This document shows positions 19,301 to 55,053 of a DNA stretch of 64,000 nt, piece by piece (positions within the stretch are counted from its first letter, which is position 1; each line of letters begins with the position of its first letter). The position numbers and the translations under genes are program-made. The stretch is from positions 7,196,770 to 7,260,769 of the forward strand of contig NC_049990.1 of assembly GCF_000003815.2 (NCBI RefSeq). Reading direction: 5' to 3'. The notes under the pieces are model-generated. The model did not search any database. It saw nothing but the letters and a program-made list of their open reading frames with translations, and was not told where the DNA came from. The stretch is from Branchiostoma floridae. Lineage: Eukaryota; Chordata; Leptocardii; Amphioxiformes; Branchiostomatidae.

Positions 19301-22300
19301 CATCAGAGGATTTTAACCAGAGTTGGTATACTAACAAAATATACCAATCCCTCAGAATATTAGCTGTTCGTGGTTCCACCAATGTGACTGTGGCTGTACA
19401 TGTATGTCTGTCATATATTTGCACTTTGATGTTTTCATTTTGCATTTCTACATTTTGATGGATAAGGTTTATGGATACGTTACAGCCCTGTATGAGAGGG
19501 CTTTGTTATTTAAACATTTATGGAGGTGTTAGAGAAAGCAAACATGTCTTCTTACTGACCTTGATTAGGATCTGACTGCCCAGGGCAGACGGCTGCCACC
19601 CTCCAGTTGTTGGGATCTGGACACATGCACGCACACTGCTCACTACGGTAGCCTGCTGCCGGGCACGGGGTCGCACGGTTTGCACACTTGGCTGGGGAGG
19701 AAGGAGGACAATATGGCAGACTTTGAGATCAACCAACTGATTTGAAAATTAATGTACAGTAACTGCTGAATGTTATACATGATGTATCTATCTGTTTTGA
19801 GTATCGCTCAGGGCTGTCTCAACTCCTGGACCCGTCCTTCCGACCCAAAATTTGCTTGTTGGAACAGAAAATAACTTCCATAACTTCCATAACATCCATC
19901 CCCAAAAGTGCCATGAAATTGTTGAAAATGTATTTTTATCAACAACATGGACACCCAAACAATGAGTGGGACGAAAAAAGATTTCAAGCTGGTGACAGCC
20001 CTGGTATCGCCTATTCACATGTTTTCACAGGGACCAGAAGCATACCTGTACCTGAATTTTCTGAACTAGAACCCACCAATATATCTATGTATGCAAAACC
20101 GAAAATCAAAGAAAGTAAAACAAAAGCTTACAATCGCAGGTGTAGAGCTTGTTGACAAACTTGATGTCATAGTAGCTGAGACTGGTGCGTTGGCCAAGAA
20201 GGTTCTGGAAGTATGGGTTCTTGGAGATAATCGTCTTGCGGTTGGCAGGGCTCGCACTGTATGTCTGTAGAATAAACAGGAAATGAAAGTTACAGGATTG
20301 ACCACCAGTTGTGCATGGTGTGCATAGTCCAGTGGTTAGCGCCCCTGTCTCTGGAACTAGCCGTGAGTTTGATTCTGGCTGTGTCGATCACCCAACATGC
20401 ATGCTACAGGAAAGGGTTGCAGTCCTTATGACGGGAAGTTAAGCCGTGGTCCACCGTTCATTGTGCTTGTCGAAAAAGCTAGGGGAATTTCCCCTGTACA
20501 ATGAACCTGTGAATACTGTATATAGTTCTATCCTTTCAATCACGACCAGTGGATGACTAGCTCTTCAGTGAGTTAAAACTAGATAAGATCACTTTCCTTT
20601 CTTACCAAACACAGCAATACATATACTCAGTCAGTTGATGTCATGTCATTTTAGTAGCTCTCAAAGGATGCAAAAGATTATCCAGTCACAAAAAGTGACA
20701 AGAAATACCAGAAGTTCTGCTTCAGCACCAAGGACAGATGCCAGTAGGCCAGAAATCATAGCCAAATTTCGACAGGTTAATACCTGACCACGTGCATAGT
20801 TTCTCAACAATCTTCTTGAGTTATGCTGTTCAATCCCAGTGAAACACAGCTACGCTCCCAAAACATAACCTTGACAAAGGTAAATATTATGAAAATGTCT
20901 GTAACTGACAACTAGTAAATGAACGACGATATGCATATTATAAATACCCTTGTTGACAAACGTACTAACTGTTACAACTCTTCTATCTAGTCCGTTGACA
21001 AAAATGTAATTTCAACATTCTAGTTACAAGCAGAGATGTTGGTAACAAATGGTTGATAAAGACACTGACCGCATCGTCCCACTGCATGATGGACAGGTAG
21101 TCAAATGGGATGTCGAACAGGTTGATCTGGCCCGGGGTTAGCTTGGCAAACTTGGATCTGCATGGGTAGATCGTAAAAAGGTAAACATAGCTCGGATATA
21201 TTCTCTTGACAAATATCATCCTTTCATAGCCCTTGCCTAGTCGCATCATAATAGCCAATCTCTACTTGATTAAAATATGCCCCAAAAGCAGTTTCTCAAG
21301 CAACTGGATATGATTTTGGACACGGTAAGACGTTTGAGGTAGAATCCACTGCCTTTTGCCAGCTTTTTGGCGCATCTAACTTCTGGATGTTAAACATTGT
21401 TGTCAGAATGTATGCTTAACACTTTTGCTAGCCATACATGACACTAATAAATTTATGACTTGACAACAAAGTTGGCAGGAATATGGCTGACGGAAACAAA
21501 CATTTATAGCTTGCATTTGAACTTGTTGTTAAATCCTACTACAAAAGATTTCCTTCAATCTTGAATGTCTTTAGCATTACAAATTTACACCTACTCTTCT
21601 CCCTTCTTGATGTTCTCGGTGAGAACGATGACTCTCTGGTCACGGTCTGGACGTCGGATCTCAGGATACAGCCCCATCGCACTGCCCAGAAGATGCATCG
21701 CTACAGCTGACTGTATGGTTGGAGGTAGAAACACATTCATTTTAATTTTTTTTTTTTCGACTCATATTAGGATTAACATTGTAGAATTGATTTGCCATAC
21801 TTTGTTGTTAGTTAAATTGTGTTAATATTTGTTGATTCTTGCTGTATTACCATTTGTTTGATTTGACATTGTTATCAATTGGTGTTGTGTTGTATGTATG
21901 GGTTTTTCCCCCCAGGGATCTTTGAAAAATGCCAACTAGGTGACAGGTAACCCTGGTTTAATTTTTTTTTAAATAGTCTATTAGGGTCTAACATACCCCA
22001 CTTCTTCCCAACATCAAATGCTATCTGCCACAACAAAATTAAGACCATCGATGATAACACGTCTAGTACAGAATGTACACAATAAAACAAGTTCCACTAA
22101 AAGTTCTAGGATGACAAACACGAAATAAGAAATGAACAAGTAACTAAAGTGATACACACCGGATCATTTTTGTAGCTGCCGTACATACAGGAGTCAGAGT
22201 ACGTCACTGCTTGTGAGCCTGTTCGCGCTCTTCCTGTACCAGCCCCACAGTTTCTAGAAAGAGAGAAAAAAAACACCAAATGTTGGTGAAAAAGAGCGCA

Positions 22301-25300
22301 TACTAGTGAAACCGCTTTTAATTGCTTTTGATAATCTTAATGTACGGTTGGTTCAATCCTTCAAATGTTGAAATATAGCAGCAAACATCCCTTTAACTGC
22401 AAACTTAATATGTCTGTATTAACAAAAACAAGCTACCGAGACAAGCTAAAAAAAGTACAAAGCCAAGCAACCAGATTCAGCATGAACAACTACCACAAAG
22501 GTGCTACATGTACCTACAGTGTTACAGAACCACAACAGTTCACAGTGTTACGTCTACATGTGTCCAGTCTTACGTTGAGTGTTTGACGAATGTGATGAAG
22601 TCCTGGTGCCCTAAGGTTCCTGCCAGTTGTGGTGTAGACTCAGCAAACTTCACGCAGGTCTGTGAGCTCCATGTGGACATGGCCTTCATCAGCTCTGCTC
22701 TATCCCTGGGTGCTGCACACAAGGCAAAAACAGTATAAATCTACACATCGTTTCGATGTCTATCAGACACCATAATCAGGGTTAGAATGACTGGATCTGA
22801 TTCTTGCTGCTACTTATAGCCGATGTAGGTGGCGCTGCTGCAGCAAGAATGCTGTCCCAAATTTTTCTCAGCTAGTATCCCTCCTTGTCTCTGTTTATGC
22901 TGAGTACTTTACCAACCTGATAAAACTATTTTCAGATATTAATCTGCGCTCATAATGTAATGTAATGTAAAATGCACTCCAATGTACTTAAGAGCACCAA
23001 ATTAAAAATAATTATTTACATAAGAGATCTACTATCTGAATATCTCAAAATACTAAGCCATAGGCTAAGTAGGTTGTCATCCAGTGTATAGGTCACTATA
23101 TTGAAAAGGGATAGCCCATCCCTCTCCTTTTAGTTTTACATCCCGACAGAAGTCAAGTACTGATTTTTCAACCAGATGAGGGTAGATATAGAATTAGAAA
23201 TACCATGTTAAGTGCCTTTCACAAGGACACTACAAATGTACGTCAAGCCAGATTTGCTGGAATCAATACTGTGACCTTTTGATCTCATGTCTGCTAGTAT
23301 ATCCACTCTATACTATACTGTCAGTCAGTCTATGCAGACTATGACAAAACGCAAGTACAATGACAGCGTACAACGACAACGAAAAAATACATAAACTTAA
23401 TGATACAACTTGGAAACTATTAAGGTCCAGAGCTCAATTCAAGGGGCTTGTTGGCCTATGGCCACGTCACTATATCCACTCTAAACCTTTGATAATAAGA
23501 ACAAATTGTGTTAGAATTTTCACTCACCTACACTGGCATCGAACTTGTAAGGAACAGTTGCTTGTGGCCATAACAACAGGGGATCCTTGGCAGCTTTCCT
23601 TTTTACCCTGGTGGACCTCGGATTTGGTGACTGAAAATGAAACAAATCAACATGTACAATTTTGTGTAAGACTAAAAGGTAAAGGTCCCAAGGTAGTGAT
23701 ATGCTTTTACCTTCCCAACCGAAATCGAGTACATGTTACACCAAAAGTTAGATGGAGTCAGGAAGGTCAATGGATTTCCAAGTAAACGTCCGACCCAGTG
23801 CTACCAGGAGTTGGACCCATGGCGCTCACTCTCGTGTCTGGAGGCCTAACTACTAGGCCATCAAGGCAATACATTAATGATTCTGTAACATGAAATTTGA
23901 TGAAACGTTCCTTTCATATGCAATATGGAGGATGAAGAACTCCATCTTCACAGAGGGAAAAGTGAACAGAATTTGGATAATGTTCCATAGCCCGTCGTTC
24001 TGTAGTGCTGGTGAATAGTGGTGAATCCACTTTTCGTGTTCTTGTAGATTACTAAAAGTTTGATAAACATAGTAGACAATCCCATTACAAAATATCTTGT
24101 TTTAATATTAAGGAAAGGAACCTCTAGAATTGTTAGTAAATAATAAAGACAACGATTTCTAAGTTTCATTTCAAGTACACTTGAGATTCAAACAATGTTG
24201 TCAGCTGCAGCATCATGTTGTACAGTTATATGGGTTTTGTTCCCGCCACACAATTATATCCCAGGCGAAAGACCACATGTGCTTTGGCTTTCAAGTGCTC
24301 AAAGGTAGATAGACATAATCATGATCGTCTTGAGTAGAATGAAAGCTGACAGGCTGGATTGTGGTGCCATCTGGCATGTGTGGTGCCCAAAGGTAAGGTG
24401 TGAACATACCAAGGGCTGGTTCCCACATAGGACGAGCTCGAGGGGCATATCTTTGTTAGGCTTAGGGGGGAAATTTTGTGTTTCCCGTTACCTGATCAAC
24501 CCTAGCAAAAACCTGCGTACCCTAGTTTTATGGGGGGGGGGGGGACTCTGCGAAGGGACGTTTTTTTCATAATGTATCTTTGTGATGAAATTTTACAAAA
24601 ATAATCATCTGGTGTATTTTGCCAGCCAGCAGGTACCCAATGAGTAGTGAGGCTGTTTAACGTGGTCGCGGAATTAACCCCTCAAGGCTTTCTATATTTG
24701 AGATCATGACTTCGAGCAGTTCATGTTAGAATTGGCAGTAACTATTGTACGCTGAGATGCACCCTTACAATTTTGATAAGTGGGGTCGGTTATTTTGAGA
24801 TAAACGAGCTCAAGGTGTGATCTCCTCGAACAAGGGACCTCTGGCTCTATAACCCATCAAACAGGATGTATGTAGTCGGATCAAGGTGCTTACTTTCACC
24901 TGACCTCACCTGGGTCGAATGAGGAAAAAGGTAATTGGCGCCTTTCCCAAGGATACAACATTTGGGCCTACTAGAGGTTCGAACCAAGAACCTTTGGTTT
25001 TTAGTAAGCGACCTTAATCACAAGACCACCATGCCATCCTCGGCCTCCGTTTTGGCGATGATGACACACTCATCTCTTGGGGCAAACTGGGTGACCACAG
25101 GCTTAAGTCAGCCCAGATGTCACTAAGGTCTTTGCAATGTCGGCACTTTTTGTGTGTGTGGAAGGACGGGGCACTTATCAGATTATCTGATGGTGGATTC
25201 CCTTGCGGTCACTTGGCGGTTGACGTCTGACAATCGTAACATGGTGTGGTGATGCTTACAATTATCCATGGGCTGAAGTCGAAAAATCTTAGCCTGGAAG

Positions 25301-28300
25301 CCAGGCTATTTCCTGGGACTACAAATACCAGCAATCTCTTCGGCTCTGGAGTCACTGAATCAGAGCCTAAGATTCTGTTATTTTGAGTGAAGTGAGGAAA
25401 GCCATATAAAGTGCCTTTCCCAAGGGCACTCGGTCCGCAGCATATCAACAGATTTGAACCCAGGATCTTTGGGTTACGAACACCCTCCCGTTACCCCACA
25501 CAACCCCACCCCACTGTGACTGTGTGTGAGTCGTCTTCAAAGCTAAGGGGCCTGGGCAACCTTACCTTGGCCTGGGGGTATGTTGGACCTGTAGCCGAAG
25601 AACGTGCCTGTGTATGCCCTCAAAAAAGTTTGAGTTCTAGGCTTAAAGATCTCTACTATCGGAGGTCTCTTCTTTCAGATAGCGGGAAAGACATCTTCCC
25701 ACTTGGTAGCCCCTTTGCCTTGATAAATATAGCAATACTCGTAAGCTTCAAAGTGGCTACCGTTTCCGTCTGGAATCCATCACCCCGAAAGGCTAAATGA
25801 GGCAACAGGTTCTTCCTCATCATAAGCCTTGTTTGGTCATTTAAAACCGAGCGCTTAAGTGTCTTTTGACACAAATCCTTTCCAGATCTGCCAAGGTAGC
25901 TTGCTGAGAATAAATTGCGTAAGATATGCGCCTGTCTAAAACTAGCTTGAAGTTGCCGTTTGTTCGCGAAAAGGTTCAACAGCTGCTGCGCATTAGCGCT
26001 GCCCCCTGGCGGGGAGCCAGGGAAAGTCAACATCAAGGCTTACGCCATTTTGATTCTAATCAGTACTCCCCTAAGGTCGTATCGTGTTGTTTCTGTCGTT
26101 TTTCTTTTTCAGAAATTTTACCCTTTTCAGGCTGCCAATATTCAAGACATTGGCTTCTTCCTAATAACGAACATCTACGTGTCATAGAGTGTACTCAATC
26201 TAGAGTCAAATGATAAGAATTGAGTGTTGTGGAGAATAGACAAATTTCGCATACTGCCTATTAGATGTTTCTCAGTATGATAGAGAGGGCGTTTCAGGTC
26301 ACCTGAAAGGCTGAAACACTACCCAGATGTTAAGCCTCTGGGCGGCTCATATATCACATACCTTGGTGTCACGATACAAGGATAATGAAAACGCCCATGT
26401 ATGCTGACATAGCTGCACAATGATGACAATCATTACTAATGACTGATGCATAAATCCCTCTATCTACCCATCATTCGTCGATATAATATGTTTTTAATTG
26501 CTAGATGATTGTCAAAGAACCCGACACAATCATCGTCATGAGGCTTAGACGGGAAAAGTTCGACTTCAGTGTCCTTCTACATGAAACGATCTTTGAAGTG
26601 TTCTTAGCTTTGCAAGGTCAAGGTCGTCGGCGTGGTTGACATTGACGATGCTCCGCTAGCAGTGTCACTGATGAAAACTGGTGGATACCAGTTGAAACGT
26701 CTGACCGTTTCCAAAATCATATCCAGTTGCCTGAGTAATTGCATTTTGGCATATCTTATTACCTGGATGTCTAACGTTCATCGACGCTCCATTGGCAGGT
26801 GTTCGATCAGTGATGAAAACAAATGTTAAAAGGGAACTTCCCTCAAGAGGTAGTGACTAGTGGCAATGTGACACCAAGTCTGAAGCACTAATATCATTTG
26901 AACACGACTAAACGTTTTCTCTTTGATCATAATTTAGATCGTTTGTTGCGTTCAGTCTTTCTTCATTTCCTACACCTTGGATCTTGTGAGCTCACTAAGC
27001 GATCGTAGTTTTCTTCTGTTCGTGGAGTATAGGGTATACAGTCAAACCTGTCTATAGTGGCCACATTTGTCCGGTCCCTTGAGTGGCCGCTATAGACAGG
27101 TTTGACTGTAGGTGCACTACCACAACTGTTACATGGAGATTTCCAGTAAAACCGAAAATATCCATTGCCATTGAAATAGTCATTCAATGTAGTACGTCTA
27201 CAACTTCGACTCTGTGAGTTAGGAAGGCACAATCACCGTGTTGACACTTTCTCTCAACCGGGACGTGGGGCGATATTGACTTCCAACAACCATTGACCCA
27301 TTGCTGACATCACACGTGCATGCAGTCACGTGTCCTGAGCAAAGGGGTGAGGCGGCTTAAGAGGAGAGACCGATCTAAGTTTTTGGGGTCCTGAAGAAAA
27401 GATTATGTTTTTCACACTTTCACAGCGTCTTTACTTTTGTATCTAGAGCAACAACAGAGGGGTGCAGCAAAGTGGCTGCATTCAGATGTTGAAGATTTGT
27501 AACAGGACCAATAGGGCCTGAAGAGAAGAGTAGGTCACTGGGCCGACTGTAGATACAAACTGAAGGATGCAATTACAGTGAAACATGTACAAGAGAGCTC
27601 TACTACAAGCTGACCACCTGGCCAATGTGACCATTTCTTAAGGTCTCTCAGAAGTTTTCCCATTGACACACACAAAATTTAGAATCCTGCCTATAGTGAC
27701 CACCTTACCACATAAACCTGATTTTCTCGATCCTTTGAATGGTCTTCTTGGGCAGTTTCTACTGTACTCCTTTATAGCAAAGTTTAACATTGTTTAGAGT
27801 GTTGCCCATTCACAAGTTTTTACAGATAATTAGGTCCAGGTACAGGTCAGGACCTGGACATGATCCTCTATACCTGGACCGTACCTGTACCTGAAGTTTC
27901 TGTACCGGTACCCACCGGCACCCCTAGTGCTTCTTTGCATGGTGGCTGCGAGGGTCGCTGGCTCAGATCAGGCACAGGTTTGTTCTCATTATCCGCATTT
28001 GTAGATCGGCGAGAACGAGACATTAAACTGACTACCGTTCATTTCTCAGTCATGATTTTCACCACATGACTCGAATTGGTAGCCCATTACGGCGACCTTT
28101 TCTGTCCTGGGTGTTCTTTAAACCCACCTATATTTACAACCTTCTGTAATACTTCAGAACAAGAAAGTGAGAGGTTGGGATCAGAACCAGTTTTTCGTGC
28201 CGCACTGCGTGTGGTACAGCTCATTGTTTTGGTTTGCATAAACGGTAAATCGCCTTTATATTTGTCCAGTACCTATAAGCTGCTTGCTTAATAAGACCAG

Positions 28301-31300
28301 AGAGTAAGGTTTGACTTACTCACTTTCGGATTGACACCTACATTTTTGGAATGGACACTAACATTTTCGAAAAGTGCATGAGGTGGCATCTTTAATGTTT
28401 TCAAGGTGTGGCTCTCAAGCACATGATCTCCATTTTCGACTGAGAGTTACGTTCCTAACCGATGTTGGGTACCCATGTTCCCCTGAGTCGAGTGGGGAAA
28501 TAGGTGTAAACTTAAATGCCTGTTAAGTCAGCAACGTTAACCAAAAGAACACCTTGCCATCTTCAATTAAGCCGTATATCGGCGGCGTTCACGATCGTTA
28601 GCCACAGCTGCTGGTAGCTGAGCATAGGAGACACGATATTAGATTAGAAACAAAGGCTGCTGTAAGATCCTCTTCCAGGGCAACATATTTCCGAATGCAC
28701 CACTCACCACAGCGAGAAACATCTGTCTCTCGTTATGCCTTCGATCCATAATGTTTGCATCAAGATAAAGCCTCAAGAAAATTCCAAGACGGCCACTTTG
28801 AACGACGTGACTTGTCAAAAGAGCTGAACTGCTTCGGGTCGTTTTCAAAAGATGACAACAAAGTTAGCAGCGTATTGACGGTATTTTTATTAGGCACCTA
28901 ATGGTGCTGCAATTCGAAAGTAAGTATGTGGTCAACAAGTTTGGGAGCGTGGATTACAGTGTGTTCTGAGGATTTTTATCATACTTCTGTCCCGGCTTAT
29001 AGCGGCCCGCCCAACATCCAGCCAGCCGGGAGGGGCCAGTTACAGCCCTTTACGGCGGCGAAGTTTAGCGAAACACAGCTAGTACTACCGGTAAATGTGT
29101 GGTCTACAAATTGTGTTTACATCCTTCGATAAATGAGTTAATGGGATCATTAGAGTCTGTTCTTACATCACTAATGAGGTCGCCATTCTCAAATAAACTT
29201 CAGTGAACTGCATTGAACCACGTTGATGAGGCTCCTTGATTGTACGAGTACAACCAACGTGACTCGAGATTCCTGCTTTAAAGCCTTCACACACTCAGGA
29301 CTTTCCCAAGACTTTGCTCATGACCACTCCCCAGCCAAGGCCAAGTGCTGGGTTGTTGGAGTATCCTAGAATCTATCCTATTCTAACTCTAGTTCGATCC
29401 TCTTATCACTTTCAGGCAGAATATGGCTTGCCAGATTGATTTTTCAAAATTCATAGTCACAAACTTTAGTATATTCAAAGACCGGCAGAGTACCTCGCCG
29501 ACCAACTCCCGACCACAGATGACCTTGCGGTTAACTGCTACTAACCATGGTCTGGGAAGGTCGGGAGGTCATGAGTCAGCTTTTAAAGACTTTCTGCATG
29601 AGGTACTCCATCAAAGTTGCGGCAGGGGCACGTAATAAATCTACTAGTCTCGGGGCAAATAAAAAAAATTATGGACCTTGTATCAAAACACATTTCTGCA
29701 GCTACTGCTAACAGGACAGTCGCCTTGCCCAAATTAACGGTTCAGACCACCCATGTTCATGAAATTGAGCAAGAAACTAGGACTACATACAGTATTAGAT
29801 AACATAAAAGCACATGTTTACGGCCATTCTAGCATTCAGCCCTTGATAAAAGTAGACATACCTCCAGTATTTTCTTTAGCTGCTCCCCTCTCTCCTTTGA
29901 TAACACAACATTGAGGTGGAAATCAATTGTGTCGTGCTCCTGAAACAAACACAAATATGTTAGCAATAAGAAGAATAATCCCACACATCCACCAGGCTTT
30001 TAATTCTTTAGATAACGTAGAACATCTTTTCTACTTACTCCCGTGAGCAACTGAGTTGTGTATGTAAGGTCGCGTTCTTGCTTGCTACTGTTGAGACTAC
30101 TAAATGAGATTGTTTATCGCCAAATGTCTCTGAGAATGTACTTTATGTCCTCTATGAACACAATTGACGCCACTGTTTTTACGCTTCAGGTCTAGACAAG
30201 AGTACGTATGTGGGTTGCTGAGAAAATAGCTAAAAGAGGACAAATGGGCTGAATGATATGCCAGAGGAGTTAGCACAGAGGCAAGCAAGGATGGGTAACT
30301 GGTCGATATTCTATGGCAGCCTATAGTACAGTAGTGGAAGCCGCTTTATTGCACACCCTATTTTCCAGTACATTTCGTTCAATTATCCGAATGGTACAAA
30401 CCGCACCACCATGGGATTTGGGGATTTCGTGCAATTAGCAGAAGTGTGTGATTATTCATTGTGCAATTAACTGGCTTCTACTGTATTTTCTCAGCCACCC
30501 AAGGAGTCTGGTTAGAGACTAGTGCCGGTTGTGGTCTCATTAGCCTGCGCTCTCTGATGAGAAGAGATGCTTCTTCTTTTCGTTAGTCCCGAAAATGCGG
30601 ACCATCTGTTGCCCGGCAGGGTCGCGCTTAGAACCGTTGGAGGATATGCAGGGTGACATAAGACAAGGCCTTTGGTCGCCCTGGGTGTCAAGAGAAGCGA
30701 CTTTGAACTGAAAGTCATTCAGTGGGGCTTGTGCATAGAGAAGGATTAGGCGTCAAAAGCCTTCACGTCTGATAGCCCAACACACTTATTGTAGAGGCAA
30801 TTCGGTGTGATGGACCAAATTCGTGGCGACATCACATGACATGTTCATACCTACTCTCCGTACTCCCTAGCTGTTTCGACGCCGTTCTATTCTAAAATAC
30901 TAGTATAAACGCTTTGTTGGGCGTTTTTGTCTTTAGATATGCTGAAAAGAATACACAAAAAGCTGCCAAAAATAAAAAGCCCGAAAAACTCCTAACGCAG
31001 TAAAGGACGTAAAGAACAAGTCGAAGCCTATCTCTTCCGTCATTTGATGATCACGAGCAATCTGAGCAATAACCAACTTTGATACGTTCCAGCGATCTGG
31101 TGTTGACTTGTAGTTTCCTTCGTTATATTTCTATTCAACAGAGACCACACAGGGCATTTGCCAAGGCATTCGTATTTCTCCATGTTATATTGTGGGAATT
31201 TTTAGACCATTTCAGCGATCCGTGACCTTGGATACTGCCTGTGTCAAGTTGAGCCAGACGCCGCATCAAGTAAGATGGCCGACGGCGTTCATCAACGTAG

Positions 31301-34300
31301 CGATGATCTAACTCAACAGCCATCACTCCTCCTTCGTACAGATTCTTTAAGTGCTAACCAGGCTTACTTAAGGTCACACATCTGGATCTTGAAGTGACAA
31401 GGTCAACTTGGGCCCAATTACAAGTAATTATTGGAAGATGAAGGGCAATGAAAGCAGGTGTAGGGAGGTCGTGTGTATCTATCTATCACTGTTTTTACTA
31501 GTATTTGTTTACCGTTACCTCAATTTCATGGACCAGCGAGGAGAAAACAAAGAAAATCTGTGTGGTTCCCTGAGGCCCGAAAAACCATCGCCTCGGTAGT
31601 AGACCCAGGTGACATTCGATTCGTCGTGCTATTTAGTCGTACGATCGCAAACTGGGGAAATTATTGGGATTCGTACACAACTCAGCTGTCTTGATACCGA
31701 ACAGACTGTTTTAGATCTATGTTTTCGGTCGATTCAGTCTGCTTGAAATTCTACGACATAAAATTCGCACGACAGCCTACAACTAGCCTGTTTTTAGGGG
31801 GGGGGGGGTGTTGGCCCAAGAGCCGAAGACTTGGTCTGTGACAACTAGGCCCTGATAAACAGTCTGGAATCCAGGTTTGCCTACGACGAATGTAACTGCT
31901 CTATTTACTCATCCGATTAAGGAGAACAATCGCAAGAATCTTTCGATCAGACAGCTTCTAGTTGTAAGAAGTATAGAGGGTTCCCTCCCACGCCGCGCAC
32001 CCGTGCAGAACGGCATCTAAATCCTAAGCAGAAGGGTTGAAACAGGTCGCGCGCGCAGCCGGATATGTCCACTTTGTCTATCGGGAAGTCAGGGATGGGG
32101 ATGCGACAGAGAGATAAAACAGCATCAAGGCCGGGAAACTCTCTGTGAAGGCTGGCTTTGATACCAGACTCCATAGCCTGGATATACGGACGACGATTCT
32201 GCGGCAATCGCCCGAGCCTCGCTTATAATGATAACTTAATTGCACAACAAATGTACAAGGTACAAAGTATGGCTTATATGTGACAGGCTGGGGTGTGGTA
32301 CCCAGGCTACAGACTCCAGGGACCTGCTGTAGAACTTCCTTGGGGGCATGTTGGCCCTGGAGCTGAGGAGTTGGGCTGTATAGGCCTTGGAAACAGCCTA
32401 GCACCCAGGCTAGGTGAAGGCGTGTCCAACAAATTTTCTGCACAGTAGAGGGCTCACCTCTCCTCACCTAGTCCCATCCTCATCTAGAGGGTCGGGAACC
32501 ATGGTTGCCTCAAGCACAAGTCTCCTCCATCCATCCCTGTTCTTAGCCTCAGTAGAGGGCTAGGGCATGATCTCATGGCTAGGGTCTACTTATAAATAGC
32601 ATCCTTGAAACTCTTTCTTTCCTTGAAATGTTTGTCCAATTTGGAGATTTTTAGGGGGCGTGTTGGCCCAAGGTCCTTGCCCACACGAACTTAATCAATT
32701 CCAGAAAATCCACCAATGAAATCAATCAATCTTTCACCAATCCCCTTCATCCCATCCATCAAAATATTCACCAATCCTTTCTGCCCTTTTAGCCTCAAGC
32801 ATGTCAAGTAGGTTTCGATTAATATTTCTTTCTGTCTGGAAGAGCCCTGGCGTCTTTTCTGAAACGGTGACTGGAACACTTAGCGCGGCCGCACAAAAAG
32901 CATCCGAAAATTGACCCGAGGAAGACACATGTCCAGACCAACATCCGTGACATTGGATCCTTTTGAGAGGCCGCCTTTGTTGTTATCCAGAACCCCCCGG
33001 AGACGGGGAGATCCTCTCACAGATATCGGGCCGAACATTCCTGGAGTTCCGAGCTTACTTTGTACAGTGTGCGGCCTCCAGCCTAGCCTGGGTACATCCA
33101 GCCTTGTACTATACATGTTATAGTCTCTACCAGACTTCGGACTGGCCGAATAGCACTAGTAATAGGGGACTATGGCCAAGTTAGGAATAAAAGCCTAGTA
33201 GGAATTGATTGGCCTAGAAGTGAACTGACCGGCCGTCGAATAGATAGACTGCAAAAGACTGACTGAAATCCCATGGCGACCTATTTGTCCCTATTTGGCC
33301 AAATTTTTCTATTTTTCATCCAGCTGACAGATCTGCTTGGAGACTACCTGTGCTACCATGGGGCCAAGGAAAGCCACCATGGGGCGTTGGGCAAAATCTA
33401 GATGTACGATGAATTGGTAAAAATGACATGCATAGCCAAGTACTTTCGACCAAGACAGCCAAATTCATCATGACCATCTAAATAATGTATTAGCCTGAGT
33501 ATCATCCTAGTATAGTAACCATACGTCTATATATAACCTTTCCAAGGAAATGCTAGCGTTTACACACACACTATGCATACATGTAGTTGTTTGGCCTGGC
33601 TTGGAATCCAATTCTTACAAGTATCTACCCGAAAACAAACCACAACGTGCCCTATACCCCCACCGACTTCGCAATTCACTACATTCTTACGTGTCACCAA
33701 GGTTAATTCTCGGGAAATATCTTGGCATTAAGAAATATTGGACGGAGCTCAAAGTTGAAATACAAAACCTATGACATGTGCCATGTGGTTATCTTCGTGA
33801 CTTTTCGCCATTCTTGACATTCTTGTACAATTTTCTGGCATGGTGATTTTTATAGGTGAACCGTGAATGTTTACCATTCAAGTGTTACGTTTTGCGAGCT
33901 GGATGTAAAAACCCCTGGTAGCAGCCTGGCATCCAGGCTAGTCTAAGGTCGACCTCTTTACTTTTTTCTACAGGGATATGTCCTTGCCTAAATAGATAAG
34001 GACCAGAATTTATGTCCCGTCGTAGAGATCTAGACATGGGGTGATAGCCAGGGGAACAGACTGGGTCCGAACTTTGACCGTAACGAATGACAAATGACCT
34101 TGGGCAAGCTGGAATGTTGTCTGGTCTAGGTCGTAGACAAAATGGTAGATGGAGAGTTGGATAGTCGTAAATGGGATTGGATAAGCACAAAATACAATAC
34201 ATGTTCTATAAAAGAGGGAAATGTTCCCGGTGGTCTTGTGTTTGCGGTTTTCGCTAGCGCTGTGATCTTTTCACCGCGAACTCAAAACGAACTAAAAAAA

Positions 34301-37300
34301 CACTCCGAAAATTTTGTTGATCTCCTGCTGGCTTACCCCCTTGTTTCAAATTGTAGTCTTATGGTTAGGGTCGAAATCCTAAGTAAAGGCTCTGGCCATC
34401 ACGAACACCTAGTCGTAATTGCAAAGAGGAGAGAAGAGACTCGGGAGCTATATTATGGCTGGATACCAGGCTAACGAACACCCACATGCACACCCCTGTC
34501 GCGAAATTTCATGCCCTTTTACAGGTGGTAAAAACGGCTCTAGAACTTACATCTATCAATCAGTCGATCATCACCCGCTAAGATACGGAAAGAGTCAACA
34601 TAGTTTAAGTAAATACTCCGACGAACAGAAGGACTTGGCCGTGAAGGGTTGCCAGCATACTAGGTAGTTGTTGGCAGATCGGTCCGCCAGGTTTTGTTAT
34701 TCCAAGTGCTAAAAGGTAAGGAAGTGAGTTTGCTGTTTTAACTGGAAAATAGCCAGTAATCTAGCCTCAACTTCAAGTTCAACAGCTTGCGTCGTTGGGC
34801 AACAGAAGGCGTCCGAGTCCGAAAATAAGGCCACAACATACAGGTGACAACTGCGCGCGCATAGATTTTCGTCCGTTCCAAGAAAGAGGTTTAAATACTA
34901 TAAATCAATCATACACAGCTGAAAATTGGCAAATGTATGCCGAAAGTTGACGAATGGTTATGAGTAAACTACAAAGACTTCCTAAGTCAAAAAAAATAGA
35001 TGAAGGACAAAGATGGAGAATTTAGAATGTTTTGGTATGCCACATACGCTCTGTGTGTTTCAGTCATATGACTTCAACCTTCCAGACCACTTAGATTTCA
35101 AAATCGGTAGGCAACTTTTGCCCATTTTTTTTGCACTATTACATCATTTTTGGGGAGCCAAGAATATGCCATTCATACTGTCAACTATTTACTGTATCCT
35201 GTCTGCTCTTAGAGCTTTGAAATAAAGAAAGTGGGAAGGGAGCGACCATCAGCCTGGCCCTAGTAGTAAGACACATGAGCAATTTCAGAATTGTTTCCTT
35301 ATTTCTGTTATTTCTAGTAATGTTAAGACATTGTTGCAAAAGAAGTCTAGTACCAGTATAGACTATAGTGTCCTTGACCCTGACATCTATCTACAGGGTT
35401 ACTTCCATCCATTTTTCAGGCGTCGACGCGTCGTCTGTGACCAATGACAACCAGCAAAAGTAATTCCGTATGTCATCTTTCTCAGACGTGTCGCGGATAT
35501 CAAAAGCGTATGTTGGAGGTCCTTCTAGCCTGGAAGCCAGACTGTTCCAGGACCAGCTCCTCGGCATCAGGGACAATCAATGCTCTACAAAGGACATTTT
35601 GCCTCGACTACCTGTGGCCCAGGGTCTTCATGATCATCACGGAGGTAAAATCAAAGCATGTTGACCCTGGAGCCACCGAGGTGGTGCTGGACTGTGTTAG
35701 CCGGGGGTCCGACCTTATTCGCTTTGGTCCGCTCTCGAACTAGTCGAAGGTCGCTACCCTGCCAAGAAAGGAAGCGACCTTCGGAAGCGCACCAAAGCGA
35801 ACAAGGCCGGACTCCAGGCTAGCATTGTGTCCCCTGGAAACAGACTGCTTCCAGACTTAAGACCTAACATAGGCCAAAGACAAGAAATGTACCGTCCGGG
35901 GACTGACTAGCCTGGTTACCAAACCCCAGCCCGATCTCAAAGTATCTACCGTGCTCAAAACACGAAAGATATTTTTGAGGTTTGGGTATGGTATCCAGGC
36001 TAGGGACTGACAAGATTCCCACCGTTTCGAGACTTTGGCATTTCCGTGTGGCTAATAACTGACTGGTGAGACCACAATGTGGGGGATTCCACAGTCTGAG
36101 TAGACTGATAAATGGTATCCATGTAATCATTAAGGTCAAATATTTATCTTTTGACTGAATCCATGTGCTTTCAGCCTCCGCCCTATCTTAAATTATGGTA
36201 GGACTGCTCTTTTGTACTTGAAAAACATCAATATTAATATACAATTGTAGTTTAGCCTGGACGCCAGACAGTTCCTTGGGCCTACACAAGCAAGCTTGTC
36301 GGCTATCGTGCCAACATGCCATCAGATCAATGAAAGTTTACGATAGACAACTAGTTGAAAGCACTTAAAATCTTTCATGGGGCTATGACAAACGTTTATT
36401 GGCGGCGTGTTGGTCATAGAGCCGAGGAGCTGGCTTGTGTAGGCCCAAAGTCCCTGGAAACAATCTGGCACCCAGGCTACTATCAAAGTTGGCTGCAGAA
36501 CTGACAGTCGAAAACCTCTGTCTTGTGCACTTCCAAAGGTTACGATTAAAGGCTGCTGGCTAGTGTCATAATGCATTGTACTTGTCGCAACTTGAATAAA
36601 GTTAAGTATGGTAAAGCAAGGTTGCTCTCCTAACCAGGCTGGATTCCAGGCTACTAACGCCCCTCCCCTGTACCCAACACCCCCCCCCCCCTTTCCAGCC
36701 TTATCGCAGCTATTTGGGAGTATTATTTCCTCCCTATCTGGGCCGGATCTGCCGACCGATAAAACGGGTAGAAAATGGATTAACTGCAGAGAGCCCTCCC
36801 GGGTCGCGCCAAACTGGATCAGGAACAGCGCTGCTAGAAAATCCCCCAGTCAGATGTGGCAGGGCAGTGCACATTGTCCTTTCCGTCGAACCAGATGCGA
36901 AAGGTCCATGTTACATATTCACGGACTTTCCATGGCAGTCAGTCCTCACCAAACAAAGTCGGCACTGGGTTAGCAGTAGCATGGAAATCCTCCTATCCTA
37001 TCTAGCCCCAGTTCACTACACTGTTCACATTCAAGCAGAACTGAGGTCATATGAAATTATCAAATATGTTTTTTTTAATTCATAGTCGACTGACGTGACT
37101 TCTAAAGATGACCATGCAGTCTTACCGACCAACTCCCAACCAAAGTTAACCGTGCAGTGACGACCTACTCCCAACCATGTTATGGAGAAGGTCATGAGGC
37201 CATGCGTGACAGGCTTGGGACGGAGCGTCATGATTTTCCGTAACTGAGAATCACGTTTATGACCAAGGACACCGCTCAACCCTACTCTTCTCTTTGTATG

Positions 37301-39442
37301 AGTGTTGGGCTCCCGAAAATAGTTTCATCAGGTTGGTAGAATATAGGATGAAGGAGAATTCTTTGTACACAACCAGTGGGTACTTACATAGCTTACGTTT
37401 CGATGTCTCTCAGACACCTTCGTCAGAGCTTCTCAGTGTTGGGCTCTTTAAAGTACTGGGGGTTTGACGCTCAAAGCCTCCACATAGAGGGCGTTCTTGA
37501 CCTATTTGACACTGTCTTAAGTTTGTTTGATTTTTCTCTATTCCGTATTTGTTTACTTTAATTTGACGGCACAAAGCCAAGAAAATTATGTGGTGCCCGC
37601 ACCAGGTTCAAAATTAGAGTTTTGTTTTCAATCAAACGGGAATTTGATGGACTCCCTTGGAAACCCACTTTGGCAAAGCGGAAGGGACCACCCATTTGTT
37701 TTTGGATACTGAGTAAGTAAACGGTCCTGGGGTTTGGCCGCCCCCTCCTCTACATGAGTTGTGTGCGTAAATCAAATATCATGATTTACTACCCTTTCCA
37801 CCATGTCAACTGTAGTGATTGAGTGGGTACTAGTATACATGTGACAACGGGACGGGAAAATTCAAATTGGTCAGTTAGATGAATACCTTGAAAAATAACA
37901 CTGATTTGTGAATCATTCTGTGTCCAGAAGTAAAGAAAGAAGTGCCATGAAAAAGTTGTCACCAGATGCCTAATAAGCCTACTTTCGGAAGGAATGCAAT
38001 TCGCAATGCTTGCAAAATCATTGGATTCAGAAATTAAGAAACTGGAATTCTACAGTTTTCTATACTTGGCCTATGGTCTAAGACTATTGTAACCGGGCCA
38101 CCACCCTCGAATCTTTGGCTATCCTAGTTGCCAGACTGTTTCCGGGCCTACATAGGCCAGCTCTTTAGTCCTTTAGATCTAGGGCAAAATACCCCTAAGG
38201 AAATTTTCCCTAAGCTCCCATGGAAAGAACTTTTTAGACAGGCAAAAGTCGTGTTGTCCGGGCGGGGATAGAAGCAAGTACCGAAGAAACCCAGTCTGAA
38301 TTCCTAAGAGAGACTGTTGGTCAGGTTAGGTACTAGGCGTTAGCCTCTACCAGGCTCCAGAAAAATACCAGGCTCCAGAAAAATACTAGTAGTAGAAATT
38401 GGCCAAATATTGTACTCCTCGACCATGTAACTCCTCTGGCGTGTTTTCTGTCTTATTTGGCCAATTTCTACTATTTTCCCAGCGACCCGTGGAGCCTGCT
38501 GGTGGAGGTTACTAGTATTAGATAGGCGTTACTCTGATTACGGCGAAATGGGAGCGCAGGAGAAGTCTCCGAGCCGCGGGGCGCATCTGGATCCAGTTTT
38601 ATTTCTCCGTTTGATGCATGGTTCTGATTTGAAGCGGCGTACTTTCAATACCTCGCCTGGAATGTCTCAGCAAAACCGACCAAACCGACTCCACAGGACT
38701 AAAAAAAGCGCTGAAAAAGTCGTGTCCATTTTTTTATCGAACTTCCAGTGTTCATGGAGTGGAGCCATGACGTAAACCAGTCATCAGCAAACATTATGAG
38801 CTCATAAAATATATGTGTTTACGACGATATTGTGAAGTAAAGGAAAACGCAAAGCTTCTTTGGTTGAAGTATCACAACTCTCTTTTCTAAATAGATTCAA
38901 GGAAAAAACATTGACAATCACTACTAGAAGTCGCAAGACTTTCAGACGAGCCCGCTTCTTATTTGTCGCGTCTAGGACATGCTTGCAGTGTGACATAAGG
39001 TCGCAGTGTTATCTAACGCAGTTTGACTTGCCACTGTCAGGATTAGGGTACTTCCCTGTCTCAACAGACACGGCTTTACAACCTGAGCTACTACACCTAC
39101 GTGCGAAATCTGATAGTGATCGTTTTCAACCAGAGCGACGCAAAAAAACGCAATTTTTTCCTACCTTATCTGCTGGACAGAAAAGAAAAATAATTTGTGA
39201 CATATGGTCTTGGTTACCGCCTTACGACACTGGGCAAATCTCCAACACGCTGTAAATTTCCGTCCCAATCGTACGATAACCCATCACAGAGAACGGCATA
39301 AACTTGCCACAAGTTTGCAAAAAGCCACTCTATTCTAACACATCATAAAGTGGTAACTAAAAGGTCTTACCTCAGCTGCCGCCATGTAACACATCATTAG
39401 AACTGCTAGCGCACACGCGGCGCAAGTAACTCTGGAATCCAT
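16315..39442 (-). CDS. Secreted astacin-like pseudo-protease with kringle and sushi domains
   Basis: Coding exons in transcript order: 39442-39371, 29939-29862, 23630-23528, 22712-22574, 22253-22160, 21710-21595, 21157-21070, 20264-20132, 19691-19560, 19274-19106, 18765-18653, 17228-17016, 16380-16315. Phases agree at every junction, giving at least 505 residues. Order: signal peptide (1 to about 22), propeptide, furin site R58-V-K-R61, astacin (M12A) domain about 65-273, Cys-rich EGF-like module about 276-318, kringle 322-403, sushi/CCP 424-482, start of a second kringle from 489. Astacin disulfide cysteines are kept (C104, C133, C153, C273). The zinc motif HExxHxxGxxH is HLLGSAMGLYP (168-178) and the Met-turn is SIMQW instead of SIMHY, so catalysis is very unlikely. 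A role as an extracellular binding protein is inferred. The 3' end is not found. Confidence 0.85.
16740..17012. repeat. Short tandem repeat abutting the sushi exon
   Basis: Three to four diverged units of about 75-90 bp containing gtattcaatcaaag, gattgagaccctat, a Cys-rich looking taccgcacattt and accatgaat. The last unit merges into the donor side of exon 17016-17228. Confidence 0.65.
17016..17228 (-). CDS. Exon 12: sushi/CCP domain
   Basis: A one-exon module from T-C424-DPLTIPKM through GTVCNLAC and GMLTFSATVCQVDGTWS to NPLKC482: four cysteines and the Trp before the last one, the classic CCP pattern. Single-exon CCPs flanked by phase-1 introns, as here, are typical of shuffled extracellular modules. 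Confidence 0.9.
18184..18312 (+). repeat. Dispersed repeat shared with 29290-29460
   Basis: Both contain actccccaactaaggtcat / actccccagccaaggccaa, then gctgggtt, an 'atc.atcctatt' block and a 'gatttgtcaaaatttatag' type end. Intronic. Confidence 0.5.
18653..18765 (-). CDS. Exon 11: second part of kringle 1
   Basis: It continues RNPDPTLLDRPWCYVQSKLD and WDFCVVPKC, completing six kringle cysteines (322, about 343, 374, 387, 398, 403). The split in the NYCR|NPD region gives a complete kringle. The lysine-binding Asp-x-Asp pair is not evident, so lysine binding is doubtful. Confidence 0.9.
19106..19274 (-). CDS. Exon 10: first part of kringle 1
   Basis: DKNCYSNRGEKYQGTVSKTQ, TGETCVPW and GPHNYCR match the kringle consensus (CY-x-G-x-G-x-x-Y-x-G ... 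C-x-x-W ... NYCRNPD). Confidence 0.9.
19560..19691 (-). CDS. Exon 9: Cys-rich EGF-like module
   Basis: The pattern KCANRATPCPAAGYRSEQC followed by ACMCPDPNNW resembles the EGF-like module that commonly follows astacin domains. The spacing is not canonical, so the EGF assignment is tentative. Confidence 0.7.
20132..20264 (-). CDS. Exon 8: C-terminal astacin segment
   Basis: KTIISKNPYFQNLLGQRTSL and SYYDIKFVNKLYTCD match the conserved astacin end (IGQR-x-x-LS-x-x-DI-x-x-x-N-x-x-Y-x-C). C273 closes the long disulfide. Confidence 0.85.
20310..20620 (+). repeat. tRNA-derived SINE
   Basis: The head has an A box (tagtccagtggttagcgc) and a B box (gagtttgattctggc) at tRNA-like spacing, followed by a unique body and a simple tail. 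It is in an intron of the astacin-like gene and antisense to it. No intact tRNA cloverleaf. Confidence 0.6.
21070..21157 (-). CDS. Exon 7: Met-turn region
   Basis: 29 codons ending FDIPFDYLSIMQWDDA. FDYxSIM is the astacin Met-turn. The Tyr that acts as the extra zinc ligand in SIMHY is Trp227 here. Confidence 0.85.
21595..21710 (-). CDS. Exon 6: degenerate zinc-binding motif
   Basis: The frame reads SAVAMHLLGSAMGLYPEIRR then PDRDQRVIV. It aligns without gaps to the astacin consensus HELMHAIGFYHE..RxDRD. H168 and the glycine are kept, but the catalytic Glu is Leu169 and the second and third His are Ser172 and Pro178. The acceptor 'ccatacag' (after 21710) and the donor GTAGGT give consistent phases on both sides, so a misread exon border does not explain the changes. 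Confidence 0.85.
22160..22253 (-). CDS. Exon 5: astacin-like domain, short disulfide
   Basis: 31 codons with N-C133-G...DSC153-MYGSYKND. The two cysteines correspond to the second astacin disulfide. Acceptor 'tctttctag', donor gtgtgt. Confidence 0.8.
22574..22712 (-). CDS. Exon 4: astacin-like domain, first half
   Basis: PRDRAELMKAMSTWSSQTCV matches the astacin helix (I-x-x-A-M-x-x-W/I-x-x-x-T-C-I-x-F), followed by HQDFITFVKHS. C104 corresponds to the first cysteine of the long astacin disulfide. Confidence 0.85.
22747..22783 (-). ncRNA. Degenerate hammerhead-ribozyme-like motif
   Basis: The minus strand reads CTGATTA, a 7-bp hairpin ggtgtct/agacatc, and GAAACGAT. The conserved CUGANGA box has one change (G to T) and stem III is altered, so it should be inactive. 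Its hairpin is almost identical to the one at 37390-37430, so both probably derive from the same element family. Confidence 0.45.
23528..23630 (-). CDS. Exon 3: furin site and start of the astacin-like domain
   Basis: It encodes STRVKRKAAKDPLLLWPQAT and VPYKFDASV. RVKR is a proprotein-convertase site, and W-x-x-x-x-VPY is the N-terminal strand of the astacin fold. In active astacins the freed N-terminus is buried near the family-specific Glu. The basic site sits a few residues upstream of that position. Confidence 0.85.
23790..23865 (-). repeat. tRNA-like SINE head, minus strand
   Basis: Read on the minus strand: A-box-like tggcctagtagttaggc and B-box-like gggtccaactcc. Intronic. Confidence 0.5.
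24479..24526 (+). repeat. Dispersed repeat fragment shared with 1981-2030
   Basis: gttacctgatcaaccctagc followed by aaaaacctgcgtaccctag matches the piece near the left edge. A poly-G run (24531-24543) follows. Confidence 0.5.
24880..25500 (-). repeat. Two SINE fragments, minus strand
   Basis: 24880-25045 and 25380-25500 both read on the minus strand as tRNA-like heads (ggttcgaacctc; gggttcaaatctg) followed by gggaaaggc..tttcctc bodies. A similar body piece is near 28475-28560. Confidence 0.5.
26664..26705 (+). ncRNA. Candidate minimal hammerhead ribozyme
   Basis: GTCA-CTGATGA, then a perfect 7-bp hairpin AACTGGT/ACCAGTT with GGAT loop, then GAAA, then CGTC and TGAC. It fits the hammerhead core CUGANGA / stem II / GAAA. 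The ACGU after GAA gives the tiny stem III and GUC is the cleavage triplet. The flanking GTCA and TGAC pair exactly as stem I. This is the layout known from retroelement-borne (Penelope-like) hammerheads, which often act as dimers. It lies in intron 2 of the astacin-like gene, antisense to it. Activity is inferred. Confidence 0.65.
26777..26819 (+). repeat. Partial second copy of the hammerhead flank
   Basis: atcgacgctccattggcagg...cagtgatgaaaac repeats the sequence 5' of the 26664 motif (atgctccgctagcagtg...cactgatgaaaac) about 110 bp downstream, but has no hairpin or GAAAC after it. This suggests a head-to-tail remnant of the same element. Confidence 0.45.
27039..27108. mobile_element. 70-bp TA-flanked palindromic MITE
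   Basis: CAGTCAAACCTGTCTATAGT...GCTATAGACAGGTTTGACTG: 28-bp arms with one mismatch, flanked on both sides by TA. A Tc1/mariner/pogo-type deletion derivative is likely. Confidence 0.85.
29290..29580. repeat. Dispersed repeat with internal inversion
   Basis: The first half matches 18184-18312. The second half has ccgaccaactcccgaccac facing an inverted ggtctgggaaggtcgggagg. Related copies are at 37110-37215 and 60850-60930. Confidence 0.55.
29862..29939 (-). CDS. Exon 2: propeptide
   Basis: 26 codons, phase 0 at both ends, with acceptor 'gtttgtttcag' and donor gtatgt. It encodes EHDTIDFHLNVVLSKERGEQ and then LKKILE, a charged helix typical of a protease propeptide. No Cys, so no obvious cysteine-switch or astacin Asp-switch motif can be assigned. 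Confidence 0.75.
30329..30483. mobile_element. TA-flanked MITE, pogo/Tigger-like ends
   Basis: CAGTAGTGGAAGCCGCTTTATTGCAC and the inverse of GTGCAATTAACTGGCTTCTACTG form imperfect terminal repeats of about 25 bp, with TA on both sides (30327-30328, 30484-30485). No coding capacity. Confidence 0.8.
32281..32430 (-). repeat. AGCCTGG-family repeat arm
   Basis: catgttggccctggagctgaggag ... ggccttggaaacagcctagc matches the right arm of the complete palindrome at 36253-36479. Confidence 0.6.
33121..33350 (+). repeat. Dispersed repeat, inverted relative to 40750-40951
   Basis: tagtctctaccagacttcgg, agcctagtagga, tggcctagaagtgaactgac, cggccg, and cagctgacagatctgcttgg occur in the same order, inverted, at 40750-40951. 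No coding capacity seen. Confidence 0.85.
36253..36479. mobile_element. Complete AGCCTGG-family foldback element
   Basis: Starts tagcctggacgccagacagt and ends with the inverse (aatctggcacccaggcta). Inner arms gggcctacacaagc / gcttgtgtaggccc and gccaacatgcc / ggcgtgttggtc also pair. It is the prototype of the most frequent repeat in this window. Confidence 0.8.
37390..37430 (-). ncRNA. Candidate minimal hammerhead ribozyme, sense to the astacin-like gene
   Basis: The minus strand reads AGCT-CTGACGA, a 7-bp hairpin GGTGTCT/AGACATC, GAAA, CGT, A, then AGCT. CUGANGA and GAAA are intact. ACGU can form the minimal stem III with A as cleavage-site base, and the two AGCT tetranucleotides pair as stem I. 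It lies in intron 1 on the transcribed strand. Catalysis has not been shown. Confidence 0.6.
38338..38518. mobile_element. Foldback element, family A, second copy
   Basis: Contains tagtagaaattggccaaata and tgttttctgtcttatttggc facing each other, like 13005-13215. An 18-bp direct repeat (taccaggctccagaaaaa twice) lies in the left arm. Confidence 0.75.
39371..39442 (-). CDS. Exon 1: start codon and signal peptide
   Basis: ATG followed by MDSRVTCAACALAVLMMCYM and AAAE: short polar start, hydrophobic core and small residues before the probable signal-peptidase site. The donor is gtaagacc. The first coding exon is separated from the second by an intron of about 9.4 kb. Confidence 0.8.
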
Positions 39443-39831
39443 GACTCCTTTCTGCTAAAGTTCTACCAAGTCAAGTCTGTTCCAAGATCACGCGATGATC
39501 TGTACTTGCTCTTCCGAAGAGCTTGTAGAAACCTTTCCCGTCTGGTCCACAATCTTCGTTCCCGGTGTAATGATGGTAGTTGTGAGGGGGAAGGTTTGAG
39601 GGGTCCGCCTTCTCGTGTAAGGGCCGTGCCGAAGTGACCGAGCTACGGGGACGGGGCACACCTTCTCTCGCAGATGGAGGGAGAAAGATGACACCTTGGA
39701 GCCTGGCCAATCACGTGAGAGAAGCCTGACCTCTCCACAGTGGGAGACAACGGTCCTGCCAGCAGATTCAGCTGTAGGGAGAAGAAAGGCTCTCTTGGGG
39801 TTTTGAGCTCTTCTGGGGGTTTCAGGCATTA

Positions 39832-49333: not shown

Positions 49334-50464
49334 ATGGACTACTCAAATACTACTACAAACATGCATTCATTTGCCAACTCAACAGCCTACAACAACACAG
49401 GTGTCGTCAACTGCAGCAATGATACAAGAGGCTCATGGCCACAACCTCCCTCACCAACGCACGAATTAGTGTTTGTATGCATCGGACAGTTGGTGGCAGG
49501 TATAGGACTGCTTGCAAACTTTCTTGTGATCTACATCATCGCGAGATACCCGGCCATGCGAACCGTCCCTAATGTGTTTGTGTTAAACTTAGCGGCCGCG
49601 GACGCTCTGTATTGTTGCGTGACACCTCTTTACACAGTGTATGCTCTCCACGTAGACTGGATACTTGGTAATGCGATGTGTAACGTCTACTTCATCATGG
49701 AGTACGTTAGTGCGTTCTGTAGCGTCTGGTTCCTGACTGCTTTGAGCATCGAACGATACAAGGCCGTCACAGATCCGATAGGACACTCACAGAAGATCTC
49801 CCAGAAGAAAGCCTGGGTAGCTAGCGTTGTTGTTTGGTTCTTTGGTTTAGTTGCTGCATCGCCGACTCTGGTTTTCGTGAAAACTGCCGTTCATGCTTTC
49901 TCCTGTGAGTCGGGAGGCAAAATTCATCACGTAACCCAGTGCGATGTCTTGGCTCCAGAAGGCATACCAGAAGAACTCTTAAATAAACTCCGTGGCATGT
50001 ACGGGTTTACAATAACCTTCGTAGTGCCGTTGTGTATCATCATACCTCTGTATGTTATCATATGGCGCAAACTGCGGGAAAAGAAACCGTCTACTCTATC
50101 CATGCATCTAATCAGGTCCAGGAACAGAGTAACCAGAATGGTTGCCGCTGTTGTAGTCTTCTTTGTTATCGCCTTGCTCCCCTGGCACACTTACTGGATA
50201 CTTCAATATTTTAGCTTGATTCAAAACGTTCCCCACGGTCTGTATGACGCCTGTTTGGCTCTTTACGTCGCAAATTCCGCTGTGAATCCGTTCTTTTATG
50301 CGCTAATGGGCGATAAGTTCAGACGGTATATCAATATTGTGTTTTGTAGATGGCGTCTCTGTAGAAATAATACTCGACAAAAAAGACGGGTGCGGAAAGA
50401 GTTCAATATCCAGTTTGGATCTCCGCAGTCAGAAACAGTTGTGCCCCATGATACACGGCTGTAG
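49334..50464 (+). CDS. Peptide-type class A GPCR (receptor 1, intact)
   Basis: A single-exon CDS of 376 residues with start context accATGG. The extracellular N-terminus (1-43) has several N-glycosylation sequons. Seven hydrophobic segments are present with the family landmarks: N62 in TM1, D90 in TM2 (NLAAAD), C116 at the top of TM3, E140-R-Y, W168 in TM4, C191/C203 in extracellular loop 2, P238 in TM5, P283 in TM6 (ALLPWH; the toggle Trp is Leu), and NPFFY 318-322. The C-tail is basic. MRTVPNVFVLNLA resembles somatostatin/opioid/allatostatin-type receptors. The ligand is unknown, and the peptide-receptor class is inferred. An AATAAA poly(A) signal lies at 50686-50691. Confidence 0.88.
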   Translation: MDYSNTTTNMHSFANSTAYNNTGVVNCSNDTRGSWPQPPSPTHELVFVCIGQLVAGIGLLANFLVIYIIARYPAMRTVPNVFVLNLAAADALYCCVTPLYTVYALHVDWILGNAMCNVYFIMEYVSAFCSVWFLTALSIERYKAVTDPIGHSQKISQKKAWVASVVVWFFGLVAASPTLVFVKTAVHAFSCESGGKIHHVTQCDVLAPEGIPEELLNKLRGMYGFTITFVVPLCIIIPLYVIIWRKLREKKPSTLSMHLIRSRNRVTRMVAAVVVFFVIALLPWHTYWILQYFSLIQNVPHGLYDACLALYVANSAVNPFFYALMGDKFRRYINIVFCRWRLCRNNTRQKRRVRKEFNIQFGSPQSETVVPHDTRL

Positions 50465-54751: not shown

Positions 54752-55053
54752 GTAGGTTATCAAGGCTCCATGTCTCTGTGCTTTACTGTACCAAAGTTCA
54801 TTACGACCAAAGTTGGATTCAGAGTTGGTAATAATATGCCGTTATATCTGCTTACAATAGCTTTATGTCTTCTCAGGGGCTGACAAGCTATCCATAGGTT
54901 GGGCCCTTGTTGTTGCATTTTTTTCAAAACAGTTTTGAGTTTTGGGCGACATTCTGTTGAAGACGGTATGTCCATGACATGTGTTGAACAAAAGGCATTG
55001 TCACATTTTTCATTTTTCTGTAGATACATACAGAGAAGACGACAAATAGAACC

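Follow-up and report, generated by a model that had tools for sequence, protein, structure and literature searches.

What lies at 26.7 kb of this stretch of the Branchiostoma floridae genome? The window analysed here, 64,000 nucleotides of contig NC_049990.1 (positions 7,196,770 to 7,260,769 of the forward strand), carries on its plus strand, at 26664-26705, a 42-base element (motif A; GTCA-CTGATGA-A-AACTGGT-GGAT-ACCAGTT-GAA-ACGT-C-TGAC) whose parts are arranged as in a type I hammerhead ribozyme: a stem I arm, CUGAUGA, a hairpin as stem II, GAAA, GUC and the second arm. An earlier note on this DNA had described a minimal hammerhead with an intact core, and the sequence blocks it named are all present. 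The stem I arms GTCA and TGAC (26664-26667 and 26702-26705) can form 4 bp; CTGATGA (26668-26674) is what we take to be C3 to A9 in hammerhead numbering; stem II (26676-26693) comprises 7 bp closed by the four-base loop GGAT; and GAA-ACGT-C (26694-26701) provides the core GAAA, a palindromic ACGT at the place of stem III, and the GTC ending in C26701, after which, going by established hammerhead knowledge, cleavage would presumably occur. While the CUGANGA and GAAA blocks of a canonical type I hammerhead are thus in the expected order, two other canonical traits are wanting. An unpaired A (26675) separates the core from stem II, which should abut it directly, so that the core is not strictly intact. 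Moreover, ACGT is a bare palindrome and the monomer therefore has no stem III: the minimal stem proposed earlier would need a stem and loop that a single molecule cannot make, and ACGU pairing is possible only between two molecules.

The same layout is found a second time in the window. Motif C, recovered by descriptor scans on the minus strand at 37390-37430 (AGCT-CTGACGA-A-GGTGTCT-GAG-AGACATC-GAA-ACGT-A-AGCT), retains both core blocks and shares with motif A the single additional A ahead of stem II, the ACGT at the place of stem III, and a 4-bp stem I; one of the seven pairs of its stem II is G-U. Both motifs have decayed relatives. Part of motif A together with its 3′ flank (26681-26758, plus strand) belongs to a dispersed repeat and aligns with 21349-21271 on the minus strand at 82.3% identity over 79 bp. 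Motif B, as we call this relative (21271-21366, minus strand, with the aligned core region included), is clearly akin to motif A through the 3′ flank, yet its core is broken (CTGGCAA, CAAACGT). Motif D (22743-22786, minus strand) was placed by its alignment to motif C, in which 37396-37426 matches 22749-22779 (minus strand) at 87.1% over 31 bp; the two agree in their stem II arms (GGTGTCT/AGACATC), and motif D has two core mismatches (CTGATTA, GAAACGA). Two traits of minimal hammerheads of the Penelope type are accordingly seen here: core blocks without helix III, in motifs A and C, and membership of a dispersed repeat, the window holding two such families with two copies apiece. Copies lacking the core, which the earlier note had listed among the findings that would refute its own proposal, do exist in the form of motifs B and D, side by side with motif C, which keeps it.

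An alignment of four sequences placed its gap next to the core instead of in the loop. The base corresponding to A26675 is A in motifs B and C and T in motif D. Insertions of 1-2 nt beside CUGAnGA occur within known hammerhead alignments (PMC10085705), and a viroid hammerhead with an extra core nucleotide had weak activity (PMC11014351). Motifs A and B align without gaps through the motif, and their differences are denser in the stem II arms (8 of 14 positions) than in the 3′ flank (8 of 57; Fisher p 0.0017); both carry the same loop, GGAT. Four of the 11 pairs changed on both sides, three of these in stem II, where two further pairs are unchanged and the remaining two of the seven are lost in motif B; two pairs of stem I are lost there as well. 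Sliding the pairing partners against each other in six ways left 0 or 1 double-changed pairs. This pattern lends moderate support to the view that stem II was kept as a paired structure in the history of the A/B repeat.

How often would such a layout arise in random sequence? A loose type I descriptor identified three sites in the window (26664-26705, plus strand; 37390-37430 and 10170-10212, both minus strand), whereas 400 first-order Markov simulations, matched to the window in length over both strands, gave a mean of 0.0225. With a stricter descriptor, requiring the core CTGANGA/GAAACGT and a fully paired stem II of 6-7 bp, motifs A and C were the only two exact-core matches, compared to none in 802 second-order Markov simulations; in a similar scan for a 7-bp stem II in which one pair may fail, a single exact-core match turned up in 768 third-order simulations. 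Matches with two mismatches in the third-order scan were motif D, at 22779, and a site at 32363, against a simulated mean of 0.22. Matches with three mismatches were not clearly above the simulated rate, be it in the second-order scan (13946 and 27391; simulated mean 0.50) or in the third-order scan (13946, 38168 and 37436; simulated mean 2.80). Motif A is unlikely to be a product of chance, and to this extent the earlier description of 26664-26705 holds, the strictly intact core excepted.

A partial second copy had also been reported downstream of motif A. Repeat comparison places its clear part at 26807-26820 on the plus strand, at a spacing of 142 bp instead of the 110 bp given earlier: these 14 nt (TCAGTGATGAAAAC) match the core block of motif A at 13 of 14 positions, but C3 is replaced by G, and neither GAAA nor GTC follows downstream. 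Similarity upstream of this copy is weak, and the score for aligning the two halves was reached by 6 or 11 of 500 shuffles, depending on which of two scoring schemes was applied. Tandem Repeats Finder reported no array here at score 50. Judging by its sequence, the copy may be what is left of a tandem unit, but we doubt that it could provide the second core of a double hammerhead.

What could motif A have been? We consider it likely that motif A, situated on a dispersed repeat, is what remains of a minimal type I hammerhead such as those found in Penelope-like elements. Available Penelope-like sequences are all described as showing hammerheads, usually minimal and devoid of helix III or tertiary interactions (PMC6155905), and many metazoan genomes are said to hold minimal type I motifs by the thousand, most of them scattered through non-coding DNA and some lying in pseudo-long terminal repeats (pseudo-LTRs); these motifs may cleave as dimers, and their role is given as unknown (PMC7761336). 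The motifs described here resemble these minimal hammerheads in CTGANGA and GAAA, the hairpin of stem II, the missing helix III, and the dispersed, non-coding location (PMC6155905, PMC7761336). They differ in that motifs A and C contain the extra A and that no Penelope reverse transcriptase was found in the scanned part of the window. Cervera and de la Pena (2014) and Lunse, Weinberg and Breaker (2017) are reportedly the primary papers on this class. A literature search joining amphioxus and hammerhead ribozyme brought up, judging by title, nothing on such a motif.

In a living element, with its telomerase-like reverse transcriptase and GIY-YIG, the motif would have resided in the terminal repeats (pseudo-LTRs) and the transcript would have been cut after C26701. 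Since stem III is lacking, two copies would be required, which would pair via ACGU and exchange their stem I arms to build working cores; at the 26.7 kb locus, the element would be reduced to a fragment. The reading is supported by the second motif of the same layout, the decayed relatives, the paired changes in stem II and the published descriptions. What the sequence itself shows is the layout, its occurrence beyond chance, the membership of a repeat, the second motif and the relatives with broken cores; descent from a Penelope-like element, just like cleavage and action as a dimer, is something we infer. A more specific, and improbable, variant combines a lineage-specific, fixed extra nucleotide before stem II and the missing stem III with a switch: pairing of GAUG with CGUC within the monomer would represent the off state, and two element RNAs joined via ACGU and swapped stem I arms the on state. 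If true, cutting would depend on the concentration of element RNA.

Calculated folding energies, which follow the nearest-neighbour model and ignore tertiary contacts, bear on this proposal. The best monomer fold of motif A (-13.2 kcal/mol, z -3.46) is better than that of each of 200 shuffles; it pairs the core GAUG with CGUC at the cleavage site. With the core so engaged, the monomer of motif A is predicted to be off and is probably inert or only weakly active; a dimer would at best show weak activity, and any cleavage would be dimeric or protein-assisted. A double hammerhead, held by ACGU:ACGU and swapped stem I arms, could be formed with standard pairs throughout.

Several observations weigh against a hammerhead of Penelope-like descent. 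The hammerhead pairing of motif A (-10.8 kcal/mol) is 2.4 kcal/mol worse than its best monomer fold, the double-hammerhead dimer (-19.9 kcal/mol) is unfavoured, two free monomers together coming to -26.4 kcal/mol, and the most stable dimer in the calculation is a plain self-complementary duplex (-33.1 kcal/mol). Motif C behaves similarly but less strongly: its best fold (-11.6 kcal/mol, against -10.2 for the hammerhead pairing) has a z of -1.86, and 12 of 200 shuffles equal or better it. Taken alone, neither motif B (z 0.72) nor motif D (z -1.17) has the motif as its best fold. The covariation value for motifs A and B was attained by 28 of 500 shuffles, and with two sequences only the test is weak. 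Details of the descriptors were picked after motif A was known; consequently, the fair evidence from the scans is the second motif, C. Rfam hammerhead models matched nowhere in the window at the gathering threshold, and around motif A (701 bp and 91 bp, E up to 10) no hammerhead was reported either, the coverage of stem-III-less forms by these models not being established. Absence of a covariance match was among the outcomes that the earlier note had named beforehand as refuting its claim. Six-frame Pfam scans covering 19501-24002, 24001-28802, 28801-33302 and 35001-39802, together about 18.6 of the 64 kb, detected neither reverse transcriptase nor GIY-YIG at E up to 1. Nor did the intron in which motif A had been placed find support, as the analysis revealed no gene extending across 26.7 kb. 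Together with the extra A and the weak, broken tandem copy, these points leave the earlier assignment to minimal Penelope-like hammerheads supported in part.

How do other explanations fare? That a stable hairpin merely happens to lie between CTGATGA and GAAACGTC is, in our view, unlikely. Such an accident would accord with the absence of a core from motif B, with the missing Rfam match, with a best monomer fold that is a long hairpin consuming core bases, and with the fact that motif A was singled out from 64 kb; it would leave unexplained the paired changes in stem II and the return of the same odd layout in motif C, which the exact-core simulations all but failed to reproduce. Less probable still is a non-autonomous retrozyme, in which tandem units of about 142 bp would each hold one hammerhead and monomers would be cut and circularised. 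The core block is indeed repeated at 142 bp with some similarity around it, and many metazoan type I hammerheads are located in tandem repeats of 150-450 bp (PMC7229834). However, the halves are only weakly similar, the second core is broken, no array was called, and most type I hammerheads of invertebrate genomes are able to form a stable helix III (PMC7761336). Metazoan non-LTR retrozymes share with the present locus the type I hammerhead and the possible tandem, and differ from it in their recognisable tandem repeats and in canonical hammerheads with loop contacts (PMC7229834).

Very improbable, to our mind, is a domesticated hammerhead that acts from within an intron on a host pre-mRNA. 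Intronic action on pre-mRNA has been proposed for the conserved human hammerheads, the core blocks are present in motif A, and the relatives B and D lie between two Pfam-matched astacin pieces and just upstream of one of them, respectively (see below); against this stand the failure to show a gene across 26.7 kb, the missing stem III, the extra A, and a core predicted to be buried in the monomer. Finally, TGATGA could be read as the C box of a C/D box small nucleolar RNA (snoRNA), an idea that carries next to no weight with us. At motif A, Rfam does list SNORD14 (17.5 bits, gathering 64) and SNORD100 (15.7 bits, gathering 58) among its sub-threshold matches, but these scores are far below gathering, a terminal stem was not seen by eye, and the corresponding position of motif B lacks a C box; we rejected the snoRNA reading.

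A relic of a minimal Penelope-like hammerhead remains our preferred explanation, and two known systems help to place it. The hammerhead of Poseidon, a Penelope-like element of Anolis, showed no cleavage without protein, which fits the inactive monomer predicted here; self-cleavage of a Penelope-like hammerhead is said to have been seen earlier at 3-25 mM Mg; the Poseidon hammerhead overlaps the start of the open reading frame of the element, and no element reading frame was found at our locus (PMC11167929). Type I hammerheads of newt and axolotl resemble motif A in a very weak helix III, a palindromic element and better activity as dimers, but HHR_Amex1 keeps one pair plus a tetraloop as well as contacts between the loops of stems I and II, none of which was identified in motif A (PMC7229834). 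By itself, the locus is ordinary. Motifs A and C constitute two additions to a known and very numerous class of ribozyme-like element, and they offer two testable traits: an extra nucleotide next to the core, common to both, and a monomer fold in which the core is concealed.

We also searched for the motifs outside the window. A 20-mer from the A/B flank had two matches in viral contigs, both in one common context that by eye is unlike that of motif A. A pattern modelled on motifs C and D gave zero matches. The one match to a generic minimal-hammerhead pattern was discarded: by eye, only about two pairs stand in the place of its stem II, and Rfam recorded nothing for it at E up to 1. A 25-mer of the flank had no match in genome contigs, which says little because that collection is prokaryotic. 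Within the window, the site at 10170-10212 (minus strand) shows the same one-base insertion but has G after GAA, where A is usual, and no palindrome; we regard it as a chance match or as too decayed. A dispersed repeat at 32286-32412, distinct from the repeats of motifs A and C, contains the match at 32363, a CTGAGGA...GAAAC stretch with a hairpin in hammerhead-like layout and two core mismatches; partial matches to this repeat occur at 31802, 35908, 36399, 42146, 45435 and 51643. Close to motif A, at 27037-27110, two 28-nt arms with 96% complementarity and 18 nt between them form a hairpin resembling a miniature inverted-repeat element; a search of the window at E 0.01 retrieved no further copy, and there is one weak 24-nt match at 27683.

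As for the surrounding genes, the six-frame scan of 24001-28802 gave nothing above the curated cut-off, the best match being DUF5991 (E 0.017). Astacin (PF01400) was matched on the minus strand in two frames, with E 3.1e-11 and 1.6e-4 (the latter just under the curated cut-off), by pieces which, converted from residue ranges, lie at about 20135-20261 and 22627-22716. Because motif B lies between these two pieces and motif D just upstream of the one at 22627-22716, motif B is very probably and motif D possibly intronic. In the same region, about 21595-21710 on the minus strand reads AVAMHLLGSAMGLYPEIRRPDRD, which we read as an astacin-like exon. Compared to the motif HExxHxxGFxH, the Glu and two of the three zinc-binding His are replaced, and the sequence suggests an inactive relative of the protease. 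Further downstream, the window contains a cluster of receptor genes on the plus strand at 49340-50461, 55024-56189 and 58579-59637. The first and the last match 7tm_1; the middle one is similar in sequence to 49340-50461 and is split over two overlapping frames, so that it may be a pseudogene or reflect an assembly error.
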